Origin: Pseudanabaena sp.
Lineage (GTDB): Bacteria; Cyanobacteriota; Cyanobacteriia; Pseudanabaenales; Pseudanabaenaceae
NCBI GenBank assembly: GCA_003249035.1
Contig: QBMK01000003.1
Location: 145,917-209,916, forward strand
DNA length: 64,000 nt
Reading direction: 5' to 3'
Made by a program: the position numbers and the translations under genes. The notes beneath the pieces were generated by a model. That model searched no databases. It had not been told where the DNA came from and saw only the letters and a program-made list of their open reading frames with translations. Positions within the stretch are counted from its first letter, which is position 1; every line of letters starts with the position of its first letter. Shown one piece after another: positions 42,580 to 45,690 of this stretch.

Positions 42580-43065
42580 ATGAAAGTTAAGTCTATAACC
42601 ACTATTGTTGCTATTTCTCTATTGAGCCTTGGATCTGTCCTTGCTAATCCAAAGCTTATCCAAGAGACTTTATATAATGTAGTTGGAGCCGAAGCCTATG
42701 CTCAGTCGTCATCCATTGCACCACTAGCAAAAAAATTACATGGCAAACCTGTAGTCATTGATATCTATGCTAGTTGGTGTCCCGCTTGCCAAAATATTGC
42801 TCCCACAGTTTCGCAATTGAAACAACAATATGCAGGCAAAGTTCACTTTGTGGTGCTAGATGTATCTGACCGAGCCTCTACAGCAAAATCTGAAGCGATT
42901 GCCAGAGAGTTAGGGCTAAGTCAATTTCTTGCAGACAACAAAACCCAAACTGGTTCGCTAACGATTGTGAATCCATCAACAGGTAAGATTCTTTCCCAAC
43001 AACGCAACAATGCTAATAAGTCAGCCTATACCAAAGTCCTTGATTCAGCCTTAGCTGGAATGTAA
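42580..43065 (+). CDS. Exported thioredoxin-like protein
   Basis: A signal peptide (ITTIVAISLLSLGSVLANP) precedes a thioredoxin fold: PVVIDIYASWCPACQNIAP with the CPAC redox pair, VHFVVLDVSDR, and a C-terminal QTGSLTIVNPSTGKIL that has no cis-Pro of the usual form. It would act on thiols in the lumen or periplasm. It is a close paralogue of the 43834 gene (same ASWCPAC and KTQTGSLTI blocks), and both belong to one cluster with a CcdA-type transporter. An MITE and a hairpin element separate it from the next gene. Confidence 0.88.
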   Translation: MKVKSITTIVAISLLSLGSVLANPKLIQETLYNVVGAEAYAQSSSIAPLAKKLHGKPVVIDIYASWCPACQNIAPTVSQLKQQYAGKVHFVVLDVSDRASTAKSEAIARELGLSQFLADNKTQTGSLTIVNPSTGKILSQQRNNANKSAYTKVLDSALAGM

Positions 43066-43105
43066 ATATTTGGAAGTTTTTGGACAGTTTTCGTAATTAC
43101 TGAAT

Positions 43106-43249
43106 AACCCAAGTTGCTACCTATCAAAAACCGTCTCAAAACAAGTTAAAAACAGCCTCTCTAAGTGCTAAACAACGCTATTTTTGCATAAAAATCTAGC
43201 ATTTTTAATTTTAATTTTAGTTTTGGATGAATAGGTAGCAACTTGGGTT
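43106..43249. mobile_element. 144-bp MITE, copy 1
   Basis: The terminal inverted repeats AACCCAAGTTGCTACCTAT (43106-43124) and ATAGGTAGCAACTTGGGTT (43231-43249) are perfect over 19 bp. GAAT flanks both sides as a 4-bp target duplication. It is about 96 percent identical to 60122-60265 (six differences counted by eye). It encodes nothing. A transposase supplied in trans is presumed. Confidence 0.88.
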
Positions 43250-43252
43250 GAA

Positions 43253-43322
43253 TAATACCAATCCACAAAAGTGGTGGCACACTTTTGTGGATTGAAATCC
43301 AAACCCTGTAAGGGTTTTAAAC
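43253..43322 (+). repeat. Bipartite hairpin repeat element, copy C (truncated)
   Basis: It has the first stem AATCCACAAAAGTG..CACTTTTGTGGATT and the linker AAACCC..GGGTTT, but the second stem is missing. It abuts the MITE target duplication. Confidence 0.65.
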
Positions 43323-43340
43323 ATACAAAACAGGAAAAAC

Positions 43341-43703
43341 ATGAAAATTAATTATTTGGCTACATTTGCCGCTATTTCGCTATTAAGTGCTGGAGTTGGG
43401 AGTGTTTCTGCAAGCCCATCAGCAACGACACCTGCTACTAGCAAGGTCGCCGATGTCAAAATCAATCCCTGTGCACCTAAAGATAATCCTTGTGCCGCGA
43501 AACCAAATCCCTGTGCAGCTAAACCAAATCCTTGTGCAGCCAAACCAAATCCTTGTGCAGCTAAACCAAATCCTTGTGCAGCTAAACCAAATCCTTGTGC
43601 AGCTAAACCAAATCCTTGTGCAGCTAAACCAAATCCTTGTGCAGCTAAACCAAATCCTTGTGCAGCTAAACCAAATCCTTGTGCAGCTAAATCTAACTAC
43701 TGA
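43341..43703 (+). CDS. Exported NPCAAKP heptapeptide-repeat protein
   Basis: A signal peptide (LATFAAISLLSAGVGSVSAS) is followed by eleven tandem heptapeptides: one NPCAPKD, nine NPCAAKP and one NPCAAKS, ending NY. The mature protein is thus almost entirely an evenly spaced row of 11 Cys, Lys and Pro. The DNA is a nearly perfect 21-bp tandem array. The downstream thioredoxin-like protein carries three similar units ahead of its domain, so the repeat could be a thiol or metal carrier tail used by that redox system. Function is unknown. Copy number probably varies among strains. Confidence 0.8.
   Translation: MKINYLATFAAISLLSAGVGSVSASPSATTPATSKVADVKINPCAPKDNPCAAKPNPCAAKPNPCAAKPNPCAAKPNPCAAKPNPCAAKPNPCAAKPNPCAAKPNPCAAKPNPCAAKSNY
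43464..43694 (+). repeat. 21-bp coding tandem array (11 units)
   Basis: Units of AATCCTTGTGCAGCTAAACC plus A repeat in frame. The central units are identical at nucleotide level, which indicates recent expansion by slippage or unequal exchange. Confidence 0.9.
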
Positions 43704-43833
43704 TTTCAGCACAACATGAAGAAATTTGAGATCGGGCAGAGCAGACAAATCTTTTAAAAGAATTCTCTTGCAAAACGATGTAAATGCTCAGGTATAGCGT
43801 TGTTCTCAATCTCAAATTCTCAATAGGAAAAAT

Positions 43834-44394
43834 ATGAAAATCAATTATTTAGCTACATATGCTGCAATTTCACTATTAACAATTGGAGTTGCTACAGCAT
43901 GCTCAACTCCTTCTGCAACGACACCTTCATCTAATACAGTTGCTGAAGTTAAGCCAAACCCCTGCGCTGCAAAAGATAAAGCTAATCCTTGTGCTGCGAA
44001 AGATAAAGCTAATCCCTACGCTGCGAAAGCTTCATCTGCTTCAGTAGGTGCACCTCTTGCTCAAAAGATACAAGGAAAACCCGCCGTTGTTGATGTTTAT
44101 GCTAGTTGGTGTCCCGCTTGCAAAAACATCGCCCCAACCCTCTCTGATCTGAAGAAAGAGTACGAAGGGAAAGTGGAATTTGTTGTGTTAGATGTATCAG
44201 ACAAATCCACCACGGCTGCTGCTGAAGCCACTGCTCAGGAACTAGGACTGAGCAAATTTTTGGCAGAGAACAAAACTCAAACTGGGTCGCTCACAATTAT
44301 TGAACCCGCAACAGGTAAAATCTTGGCGCAATATCGTAATAATCCTGACAAAACCGCTTATAGCAAAGTTTTGGATGCTGCTCTAACTAAATAA
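43834..44394 (+). CDS. Exported thioredoxin-like lipoprotein with NPCAAK units
   Basis: The signal peptide is nearly the same as in the repeat protein (MKINYLATYAAISLL) and ends in ATACS, a lipobox-like Cys. Three units (NPCAAKDKA, NPCAAKDKA, NPYAAK; Cys lost in the third) lead into a thioredoxin domain with VDVYASWCPACKNIAP and FVVLDVSDKSTTAAAEA. It looks like a fusion of the repeat module to a paralogue of the 42580 thioredoxin. It would be the membrane-tethered partner of the CcdA-type protein encoded next. Confidence 0.88.
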   Translation: MKINYLATYAAISLLTIGVATACSTPSATTPSSNTVAEVKPNPCAAKDKANPCAAKDKANPYAAKASSASVGAPLAQKIQGKPAVVDVYASWCPACKNIAPTLSDLKKEYEGKVEFVVLDVSDKSTTAAAEATAQELGLSKFLAENKTQTGSLTIIEPATGKILAQYRNNPDKTAYSKVLDAALTK

Positions 44395-44443
44395 TTTCAA
44401 AACTTTCCATTCATTTGCGGCGCTTTGCATTGACTTAAAACCC

Positions 44444-44492
44444 AGAGATAGCTTTGAAAGCGTTGCTCCGCAAGACTTTCAAAGCTATCTCT
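44444..44492. terminator. 17-bp hairpin between thioredoxin and ccdA genes
   Basis: AGAGATAGCTTTGAAAG (44444-44460) pairs with CTTTCAAAGCTATCTCT (44476-44492), with a small inner stem TTGC/GCAA. There is no T-run. Confidence 0.5.
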
Positions 44493-44544
44493 ACACTACT
44501 CAAAGCCTTAGTAAGTTGTAAATGAATGGAAGGTTTTTCATCTT

Positions 44545-45429
44545 TTGCATGAGGATATTTGCATGAACAACCTTCACAAACCCGATCTCGACAATGACCT
44601 AGCTAAAGCAACCAAAAAGACTAGCCCTAAAATCCCTAAAAAATGGTTTGTTTTTGGAGGCTTAGCACTTCTAGGTTTTGCAATCGCTCTATTAATTATT
44701 GACCCAGTATCTAAAGGAATGGAATATGCCATATCTGTTGTAGAAAATCGCTATCAGGAATGGTTCGCGCAACAAGACACAGCTAACCCAATGGTACTAA
44801 TGCCTCTAGCATTTATTGGTGGCTTGATCGCTAGCATTTCCCCCTGTATTCTTGCCATGCTGCCACTAAATTTGAGTTATATCGGTACTCGTAACATTAC
44901 CTCTCGCAAAGATGCCTTTATCAAAGCAGGATTGTTTGTGCTTGGCAATGTGATTATCCTAAGTCTATTTGGATTAGTCTCTTCCTTCGCAGGATTGGTA
45001 ATCGTGGAATATCGCGGTCACATTAATGTGGTAGTCGGAGCGATTATTTTAATCATGGGACTCGGTTTGTTGGGCTTGATTAAGATTCCCTTGCCTCAAA
45101 TTAATGTTGGTGGATCTAATTTTGGTCCTTTTGGCGTTGGTTTAACCTACGCTTTGGTTAGTTCTCCTTGTGCTAGTCCTGTTCTGTTTGCAGTGCTAGC
45201 GGCTTCTGCGGCAAGTGGTTCGCAAGTTTTGTCAGTACTGACGATGGTAAGTTATGCATTGGGCTACACGATTGTGATCTTCTTATCTAGTTTGCTGACT
45301 GGCTTCGCCAAGCAAGCTAAACTGCTGATGAAATACTCGGAAGGAATTACCAAATTTGGCAGTATTGCGCTGATTTTGGCAGGAATTTACTATCTATTTA
45401 TAGGCATAAAGTGGTTTATTGGCGGTTAA
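44545..45429 (+). CDS. ccdA: CcdA/DsbD-type thiol-disulfide electron transporter
   Basis: A polytopic membrane protein of 294 residues that carries electrons from cytosolic thioredoxin to exported thiol proteins. An N-terminal segment (about 33-52) is followed by the CcdA core. That core has LMPLAFIGGLIASISPCILAMLPLNLSYIG with the first redox Cys, and VGLTYALVSSPCASPVLFAVLAASAA with the second. Six core segments can be drawn. The first ATG at 44545 gives MHEDICMNN; MNNLHKP at 44563 is an alternative. It lies downstream of the two thioredoxin-like genes and 42 nt before a trxB fragment. Confidence 0.88.
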   Translation: MHEDICMNNLHKPDLDNDLAKATKKTSPKIPKKWFVFGGLALLGFAIALLIIDPVSKGMEYAISVVENRYQEWFAQQDTANPMVLMPLAFIGGLIASISPCILAMLPLNLSYIGTRNITSRKDAFIKAGLFVLGNVIILSLFGLVSSFAGLVIVEYRGHINVVVGAIILIMGLGLLGLIKIPLPQINVGGSNFGPFGVGLTYALVSSPCASPVLFAVLAASAASGSQVLSVLTMVSYALGYTIVIFLSSLLTGFAKQAKLLMKYSEGITKFGSIALILAGIYYLFIGIKWFIGG

Positions 45430-45471
45430 GTTCTATTGGTAGTAAATTAAGAATCTTATGGATAGATACTT

Positions 45472-45690
45472 ATGGTAGAACAACTGGTAATTATTGGTTC
45501 AGGTCCCGCAGGTTATACAGCAGCAATCTATGCGGCTCGCGCTCAACTTGAACCTTTGATGTTTGAAGGATTTACCGCAGGCGGTTTACCCGGTGGTAAA
45601 TTGATGACTACGACCGAAGTGGAAAATCTCCCTAGATTTCCTGAAGGAATTCATGGACCGCAGTTGACGAACGAATCGAGATTTTTGTAA
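45472..45690 (+). pseudogene. trxB: Truncated thioredoxin reductase
   Basis: The first 66 residues are a textbook TrxB N-terminus: [23 protein letters not shown] (FAD-binding), [34 protein letters not shown]. The frame then enters a 28-bp hairpin (45673-45731) and stops at 72 residues, whereas the family needs more than 300. The NADPH domain and the CxxC are missing, so it cannot be an active reductase. Either the hairpin arose at a deletion endpoint or it invaded the gene. Its place after ccdA suggests the full gene once supplied electrons to the cluster. Confidence 0.8.

Follow-up and report, generated by a model that had tools for sequence, protein, structure and literature searches.

A thiol dioxygenase-type cupin accompanies the cysteines of an exported repeat in cyanobacteria

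Introduction

The subject of this study is a 64,000-nucleotide stretch of Pseudanabaena sp. DNA (GenBank assembly GCA_003249035.1, contig QBMK01000003.1, positions 145,917 to 209,916 of the forward strand), hereafter called the window; the host genome is 4.55 Mb in 60 contigs. The window encodes REP, a predicted exported chain of cysteine heptapeptides (NPCAAKP), in one row with two exported thioredoxin-like proteins, TRX1 and TRXlipo, and a CcdA-type electron transporter. A gene for a cupin lies beside this row. The repeat and the cupin are strongly coupled in cyanobacteria, with few exceptions, and this conclusion is well supported. Since the repeat and a neighbour of a thiol-oxidising kind tend to be present or absent together, the cluster suggests a hitherto undescribed route by which sulfur-rich buffers are made or managed outside the cytoplasm.

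Results and Discussion

The cupin and the repeat cysteines are present and absent together

A scan for [ND]PCAxKx[ND]PCAxK in 84,980 species genomes gave at least 117 stretches, each at most 8 kb. Among the matches listed are 58 cyanobacterial and 59 other loci, divided by record title, and all counts of loci below refer to these. Neighbouring genes were labelled by BLAST matches to single references. Some loci share a genome (L127/L135, L079/L128, L133/L139/L157, L077/L159 and L153/L155, among others), and the protein of L091 is a Cys-rich one of another sort.

The cupin adjoins the repeat in 44 of the 58 cyanobacterial loci and is the commonest labelled neighbour. It lies on the opposite strand in 41 of the 44, and the two genes are 92–1426 bp apart. 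Of the 14 cyanobacterial loci without an adjoining cupin, 13 belong to genomes in which a cupin match lies elsewhere; one match is partial, and these matches have no tree placement. No cupin was found beside the repeat in the 59 non-cyanobacterial loci.

In a sample of 292 cyanobacterial genomes, 66 have a cupin of the same family as that of the window. A tree was built from 112 cupins. The sample contributed 67 of these, after length or E filters had removed two of its 69 places; one of the two (L222) is beside a repeat gene. The tree contains a clade of 42 cupins, none with a repeat neighbour, and a clade of 70 that includes the window cupin and is here called repeat-type. The clade of 70 has 25 members from the sample, and a repeat gene lies no more than about 2.5 kb from 15 of them. 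Across the 292 genomes a repeat profile was found in 27, a repeat-type cupin in 25 and both in 20 (Fisher p 1e-20, kinship uncorrected). The repeat profile missed thioredoxin-borne repeats in G235, G287 and G314, all of which have the cupin. Of 38 family genomes, 15 have a close counterpart of TRXlipo, the window genome included, and 14 of the 15 have a cupin of at least 68% identity (partial in G028). The exception is G014, a genome in one contig.

Genomes were also sampled by the thioredoxin domain alone, which avoids selection on the repeat. This gave 23 genomes at E 1e-40 or better; nine more distant ones (E above 1e-25) were left out of the two-by-two table, and the three of these that were printed have no repeats. 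Repeat cysteines precede the thioredoxin domain in 16 of the 23, and 15 of these 16 have a repeat-type cupin; in the sixteenth, G079, the cupin is in two separate pieces. Only one of the seven genomes without repeat cysteines has the cupin (p 4.6e-4). This genome, G277, has it beside a YHS-repeat gene; its single Pro-Cys match, far upstream of the thioredoxin domain, was scored as no repeat. When 12 non-overlapping family genomes are added, the table becomes 26/1/1/7 (p 9e-6).

The genomes lacking both features span four genera. G014, G117 and G306 keep kinase, regulator, thioredoxin and CcdA genes together, and in these no cupin and no repeat cysteines were found. The relic units NPYAVK in G014 and NPGAAK in G117 show that units were lost there. 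Within about 6 kb, thioredoxin and CcdA are the only genes labelled in G088, G130 and G269. Repeat and cupin are both missing from G113, a congener of G117 and G130. The simplest reading of the joint absence is that the cupin has work only where repeat cysteines exist. Thioredoxin-CcdA loci without repeat cysteines persist where the cupin is missing, indicating that the cupin, rather than thioredoxin or CcdA, is the tightest partner of the repeat.

The cupin belongs to the thiol dioxygenase superfamily

A profile of 50 cupin members matched, among solved structures, 3uss (3-mercaptopropionate dioxygenase, E 2e-16), cysteine dioxygenases and 8vni (mercaptosuccinate dioxygenase, E 1.4e-15). The window cupin has no Pfam match; of the 50 members, 21 reach CDO_I with an E of at most 0.1. 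A three-His site aligns with those of 3uss and 8vni: H112 and H114 are found in 69 of 69 and H166 in 68 of 68 aligned repeat-type cupins.

As described in the available part of PMC10966181, small-molecule thiol dioxygenases share a Ser-His-Tyr motif, and the protein-acting N-terminal cysteine oxidases are without it and have X-Asp-Leu in place. The repeat-type cupins have S/T-N-Y instead of Ser-His-Tyr, with Asn180 in 68 of 68 repeat-type and 40 of 42 sister-clade members. The motif of the small-molecule enzymes is thus absent from the cupin. Nor does the cupin show the features of the ADO/PCO enzymes, X-Asp-Leu and an N-terminal Cys substrate: it has S/T-N-Y at this place, and the cysteines of its presumed partner are internal. 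Judged by its sequence, the cupin is a member of the thiol dioxygenase superfamily that lacks one defining small-molecule feature. No signal peptide is visible in the cupin sequence, so that the protein should be cytosolic. With a cytosolic cupin and an exported repeat, any direct contact would take place before export.

It is unlikely, in our estimate, that the substrate of the cupin is a small thiol or persulfide, oxidised in the cytosol, with the arm of repeat units storing or ferrying sulfane sulfur or thiols outside and held in the right state by thioredoxin and CcdA. Cupin and arm would then be parts of a shared sulfur-stress pathway and not an enzyme with its substrate. The profile matches named above would agree with such a pathway, as would the SoxA/TsdA-type domains of the haem-type repeat fusions described below and the existence of sister cupins with an identical metal site and no repeat neighbours. 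A system to compare is SoxV/SoxW, which keep SoxYZ in the right state. Also in its favour, 66 of 68 aligned repeat-type cupins preserve Arg190, a position at which the small-molecule enzymes hold a carboxylate. The invariant Asn180 speaks against a small-thiol substrate, since a His to Asn change in the motif strongly harms the 3-mercaptopropionate enzyme, according to the part of PMC10966181 on this enzyme. Sulfur-oxidation genes were not recognised in the window cluster either.

The sister clade of 42 rules out that the cupin family is a specialist for the repeat only. Among the sister-clade loci listed, for example L194, L195, L234, L235, L236, L238, L239 and L246, the cupins adjoin a protein starting like MARVIFYEKPGC, and some are near cytochrome oxidase-like genes.

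The repeat unit is carried by unrelated exported domains

The repeat is fused to a thioredoxin in 28 of the 58 cyanobacterial loci and to a YHS domain in nine, and stands alone in 21; these add up to 58 by chance, as four loci have two kinds and four have no called repeat ORF. One YHS fusion was scanned, and it matched the YHS (seleno)protein model with 150 bits (cut-off 70). The 59 other loci comprise 27 with a fusion to c-type cytochrome, six with P460 and 38 with a stand-alone repeat, several kinds per locus being possible. Thirty-one of the 33 listed haem-type fusions were scanned, and a SoxA/TsdA cytochrome c domain was found in 25 and P460 in four; in L173 the SoxA model gave 44.7 bits, below its cut-off of 110. 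By record titles, the Cys unit occurs in Cyanobacteria, Proteobacteria, Nitrospirae, Tectomicrobia and Rokubacteria, on unrelated exported domains, and the PC core is kept while the unit lengths vary. A search of the open-licence literature, which did not cover the supplementary precursor tables of papers on MNIO enzymes, found no paper on the NPC-type repeat.

REP (43341–43703, + strand) has a signal-like N-terminus and 11 cysteines, which are encoded by a 21-bp tandem array of NPCAAKP units (43464–43691, + strand; 10.9 copies, 93% matches). The even spacing of these cysteines, pointed out in an earlier sequence-only reading of this DNA, is exact: all ten spacings are 7, and none of 20,000 shuffles of the mature part matched ten equal spacings, the best reaching five. 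Metallothioneins form metal clusters with CxC and CxxC, and neither occurs in REP. The protein has no Pfam or NCBIfam family at E 0.1.

TRXlipo (43834–44394, + strand) is a lipoprotein-like thioredoxin whose N-terminal arm (43954–44029, + strand) reads NPCAAKDKA, NPCAAKDKA and NPYAAK, with a period of 9. The presence of three units on this thioredoxin had been recognised before, and only the first two contain Cys. An alignment of REP with TRXlipo that opens 12 bp ahead of the start codon has 71% identity in 180 columns, and none of the mapped relatives was seen to have a stand-alone REP. From these two observations REP is probably a local duplicate with expanded units. TRX1 (42580–43065, + strand) has no repeat in the window, and its counterparts in L066, L073 and L144 are repeat-bearing.

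It is very improbable that the repeat arose as a chance 21-bp expansion or serves as no more than an inert flexible linker. The array in REP is nearly perfect at the DNA level, and the restriction of stand-alone REP to the window genome among the mapped relatives would also suit such an origin. Against it, the Cys unit recurs across phyla on unrelated domains, its PC core is preserved despite varying length, and the cupin tracks the cysteines.

The repeat-YHS gene of L115 (4603–5396) consists of two overlapping ORFs, likely owing to a frameshift or an assembly error. In L175 (NC_010474.1, plasmid pAQ7 of PCC 7002) a repeat lipoprotein at 2907–3188 on the - strand is missing from the gene table, which lists an overlapping antisense ORF, WP_156785491.1, in its place. 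It is followed by a weak MauE/DoxX-like gene (MauE 21.6 bits, cut-off 27). On NC_010474.1 itself the repeat gene is placed by reckoning at about 183272–183553, and the cupin of this plasmid is SYNPCC7002_RS16005.

Redox genes, regulators and other neighbours of the repeat

CcdA adjoins the repeat in 23 of the 58 cyanobacterial loci. The BLAST labels miss divergent CcdA, and the CcdA-like genes of alphaproteobacteria were found only by Pfam. A Pfam search covering 47 of the 59 non-cyanobacterial loci, equal to 46 genomes, found DsbD_TM inside the repeat locus in four (L092, L129, L156 and L173 by position). A stand-alone repeat gene lies by CcdA-like and thioredoxin-like genes in three of them, L092, L129 and L156, from Afipia, Bradyrhizobium and another alphaproteobacterium. 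Any labelled redox gene is present in 36 of the 58 cyanobacterial and 42 of the 59 other stretches, and in none of the remaining 22 and 17.

The sequence-only reading had tied the repeat to redox chemistry, and had named repeats generally lying away from redox genes as the result that would count against this. The link extends past the window, to repeat genes beside ccdA or thioredoxin genes in other genomes, and repeats are not generally away from redox genes; yet a good third of the stretches are without such a gene. Of the 22 cyanobacterial loci in which no redox gene was labelled, 17 have the cupin.

These counts bear on an alternative that we regard as distinctly unlikely, in which the arm is a plain, unmodified thiol buffer or electron relay on an exported thioredoxin and the cupin is merely co-regulated through the divergent promoter. 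The thioredoxin fusions (28/58), the nearby CcdA genes (23/58) and the three alphaproteobacterial loci just mentioned are in its favour. It does not account well for the joint disappearance of cupin and repeat cysteines where thioredoxin and CcdA remain, nor for a repeat-only lipoprotein with a cupin in stretches that have no thioredoxin or CcdA label, as in L099, L101 and L120 of Crocosphaera.

A kinase is found in 22 and a regulator in 19 of the 58 cyanobacterial repeat loci. Among the 13 mapped relatives with CcdA, the fetched stretch contains both cupin and kinase in nine, and the response regulator adjoins cupin and kinase in relatives. In the window, the response regulator (39418–40125, - strand) is of the OmpR/NblR type, its score of 267 bits with the NblR model being under the cut-off of 300. 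The sensor histidine kinase (40107–41573, - strand) aligns over nearly its full length with the heavy-metal sensor kinase model TIGR01386, at 212.8 bits and below the cut-off of 292.55. A copper-sensor origin of the pair was considered, and no metal family model exceeded its cut-off. The nearest plasmid relatives of the kinase are cyanobacterial kinases, several of them at the same type of locus. On plasmid pPg_02 of Pseudanabaena galeata (L176, 11006–20710) cupin, kinase and regulator are flanked by an ArsR-type regulator on one side and by TVP38, mercuric reductase, ArsM and ArsS genes on the other.

Outside the cyanobacteria, the neighbours include a multihaem cytochrome in 13, ECF sigma factors in nine and MNIO in five of the 59 loci. 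DUF6969, found near the repeat in 23 of these loci, is accompanied by a haem-type repeat fusion in 18 of them. Six His, in two HxH pairs and two others, are invariant in 17 DUF6969 sequences. DUF6969 has the look of a metal enzyme, and the repeat may have it as a further partner. Kinship of DUF6969 with the cupin or MNIO was rejected, the profile-profile probability being 0.3% (the MNIO profile had only three sequences), and it had no match among solved structures (best E 0.24).

Two proteobacterial loci, L124 and L134, have the same order of repeat gene, MNIO, DUF2063 and DoxX-like gene, an operon of bufferin type with the repeat at its head. The MNIO of L134 passes the BufB cut-off (361 versus 310 bits). 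The DoxX of L124 passes its own cut-off, and that of L134 was assigned by likeness to L124. L137 and Leptolyngbya BL0902 have the order repeat gene, DoxX and cupin; the DoxX of BL0902 scores 30.6 bits with HvfX, below the cut-off of 80.

The gene cluster of the window

Five genes, for TRX1, REP, TRXlipo, CcdA and a piece of trxB, are consecutive on the + strand, just where the sequence-only reading had placed them. Its description of the two exported thioredoxin-like proteins agrees with the PF00085 scores of 48.6 bits for TRX1, with the motif ASWCPAC, and 47.8 bits for TRXlipo (cut-off 23.5), both having WCPAC. The assignment of the CcdA/DsbD_TM-type thiol electron transporter (44563–45429, + strand) was likewise borne out (PF02683, 49.3 bits, cut-off 27.1), and its Cys-Pro motifs are SISPC and VSSPC. 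Four weaker or partial CcdA matches occur elsewhere in the genome. The cupin gene (41590–42201, - strand), identified by the profile match and divergent from the repeat genes, lies next to the kinase and regulator genes. With these three genes at 39418–42201 on the - strand, the conserved neighbourhood is larger than that reading had supposed. The repeat-redox link that it drew holds for most loci, and the tightest partner, the cupin, lay outside the five genes that it considered. It had offered a thiol buffer, a metal carrier or an electron relay as the possible role of the repeat protein; to these candidate roles a cytosolic partner enzyme must be added.

The trxB fragment recognised in the same reading (45472–45690, + strand) matches the N-terminus of thioredoxin reductase over 72 aa. 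It is judged to be a remnant, as the orthologue beside ccdA has 311 aa in three relatives (L038, L041 and L043). In L040 it is 274 aa and in L045 an 88-aa piece; none was recognised beside ccdA in the other eight of the 13 mapped relatives. The remnant runs at about 45672 into an inverted-repeat element (45672–45756) with a 92% self-match on the opposite strand. This element has 17 matches in the genome, counting the query and its own reverse match, and the further copies are partial. A second close trxB orthologue was not found in the genome, the next matches being 34–35% identical in frames of 567 and 596 aa. Since trxB is a remnant and has no other close orthologue here, another reductase would now have to supply the electrons in this genome.

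The row in L041 is TRX1, TRXlipo, CcdA, TrxB of 311 aa, and then a cytosolic thioredoxin of 108 aa. Peroxiredoxin-like and CopZ-like genes adjoin a cytosolic thioredoxin in both L043 (3212–4678) and L056 (3001–4318), and a MerF-like gene was recognised in L043 alone, not in L056; CopZ-like and MerF-like are putative names for these genes. MerF-like, CopZ-like and peroxiredoxin-like genes were rejected as members of the unit, being labelled in none of the 58 cyanobacterial loci and seen downstream in L043 and, in part, L056. A short ORF in L056 seemingly joins the start of CcdA to the cytosolic thioredoxin.

Leader sequences

A leader profile built on the N-terminal 22 residues of 17 repeat-only proteins was compared with 2,834 ORFs of the cyanobacterial loci, and the training proteins were removed from the result. 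The best 41 hits are all repeat-bearing or of the thioredoxin family, including YHS fusions and TRX1 of the window. The 42nd, an unlabelled ORF of L019, seems to be a TRX1 counterpart. Unrelated ORFs begin at hit 62 and make up most of the final six listed. A single leader for all members is ruled out by a second leader type, which the profile missed. Leader-guided modification is possible for many members and is not required by the data; common descent would explain the likeness of the leaders equally well.

A proposed mechanism

We propose that an exported polythiol arm is reduced by the CcdA-thioredoxin row and has the cupin as its dedicated partner, possibly a maturase acting before export. 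We hold this account as a whole to fall somewhat short of probable. REP and the N-terminus of TRXlipo would form flexible strings of [N/D]PC[A/G]xK units outside the cytoplasm, in the periplasm or the lumen. Electrons would pass from a cytosolic reductase through CcdA to the exported TRX1 and TRXlipo, which would keep the arm cysteines reduced; this order is deduced from the gene row and from established knowledge of CcdA. The row itself includes TrxB and a cytosolic thioredoxin in some relatives. The arm may then serve as a buffer for thiols and soft metals, or sulfur, a role suggested by the bufferin-like neighbours and by the fusion to SoxA/TsdA-type cytochromes.

The cupin would be a partner of the repeat cysteines and not of thioredoxin or CcdA. 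Its likeliest action would be on these cysteines before export, like that of MNIO enzymes on bufferins; that it modifies them at this stage is possible, with the doubts outweighing. From its position, the kinase-regulator pair would control the divergent genes, and metal or thiol stress is the probable signal by which it turns the unit on.

With similar reserve we extend this proposal to suggest that the cupin might found a new class of maturases without Ser-His-Tyr, modifying internal repeat cysteines in the cytosol before Sec export and replacing MNIO in cyanobacteria. The leader common to many of the proteins would perhaps help in this, and proteobacteria might have a third solution in DUF6969. 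One and the same modified arm of thiols would then have been grafted onto thioredoxins, YHS proteins and SoxA/TsdA-type cytochromes.

Several observations weigh against the proposed roles of cupin and arm. For ten of the 25 repeat-type cupins sampled, no repeat gene was found closer than about 2.5 kb; in G156 and G128 one is 4–8 kb away. Conversely, seven of the 27 genomes with the repeat profile have no repeat-type cupin by the tree. A cupin is beside a repeat gene in G207, broken cupin pieces are on the repeat-gene contig in G251, the repeat hits of G098, G105 and G107 are weak (E above 1e-6), and in G153 the place is at a contig end. The clear exception is G164, which has the repeat and no repeat-type cupin; it and G105 have a cupin of the other kind. 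Outside G014 and G117, absence of the cupin and the repeat cysteines could be ancestral rather than due to loss. The conserved Arg190 would fit a carboxylate-bearing small thiol, and so counts against a peptide with internal cysteines as the substrate. To our knowledge, the protein-acting thiol dioxygenases so far described all oxidise N-terminal cysteines. The second leader type is found in eight of 32 thioredoxin fusions, and six of these eight loci nonetheless have a cupin. In 23 of the 59 non-cyanobacterial loci it is DUF6969, not a cupin, that is near the repeat. TrxB adjoins ccdA at near full length in just four of the 13 mapped relatives and is labelled in seven of the 58 cyanobacterial loci. 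Any metal link of the window cluster is putative.

Relation to known systems

A simple Cys heptad is thus present in at least five bacterial phyla, judged from record titles, on unrelated exported redox domains, and neither a family model nor a function was found for it in Pfam, NCBIfam and the literature searched. Its cyanobacterial partner, a member of the thiol dioxygenase superfamily, follows the cysteines. The cupin and the repeat lipoprotein of Picosynechococcus PCC 7002 are a concrete pair for the making or upkeep of a thiol buffer in an oxidising compartment, and the gene table of this strain, with its antisense ORF over an omitted repeat gene, is relevant to annotation. If the cupin does modify the repeat, bufferin-like chemistry would have a second class of enzymes.

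Three known systems can be compared with the cluster. CcdA/HCF164, SoxV/SoxW and DsbD are trans-membrane thiol reduction systems. The cluster resembles them in its CcdA and exported thioredoxin, and in some relatives also in TrxB and a cytosolic thioredoxin; it differs in that the likely client is a Cys-repeat arm, partly on the thioredoxin itself. The cysteine, 3-mercaptopropionate and mercaptosuccinate dioxygenases share with the cupin the profile match, the three-His site, Tyr182 and Arg190. The differences are the Asn in place of the motif His and the genomic coupling to an exported Cys repeat.

The bufferins and captophorins, exported Cys-rich peptides modified by MNIO enzymes and in some cases with repeats, are the third. 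Their copper and other metal roles are described in the available parts of PMC12452194 and PMC12668002. The available main text of PMC12452194 names MNIO precursors of the Buf1, Buf2, EGKCG and CxxxxC types, regards hundreds more small Cys-containing ORFs as probable MNIO precursors, and contains no word starting with NPC, cyanobacter or cupin. The likeness is in an exported Cys-rich precursor, REP having a predicted signal-like leader and 11 Cys, and in the MNIO, DUF2063, DoxX and ECF sigma factor genes near NPC-repeat genes of some proteobacteria. By these features the cluster would resemble the bufferin system in its working, yet it does not appear as a member in the comparisons made. MNIO (DUF692) is labelled by BLAST in five of the 59 other loci and in none of the 58 cyanobacterial ones, and REP matches no known precursor model in Pfam or NCBIfam. 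The conserved partner here is instead a thiol dioxygenase-type cupin, and the repeat is fused to thioredoxin, YHS domains and cytochromes.

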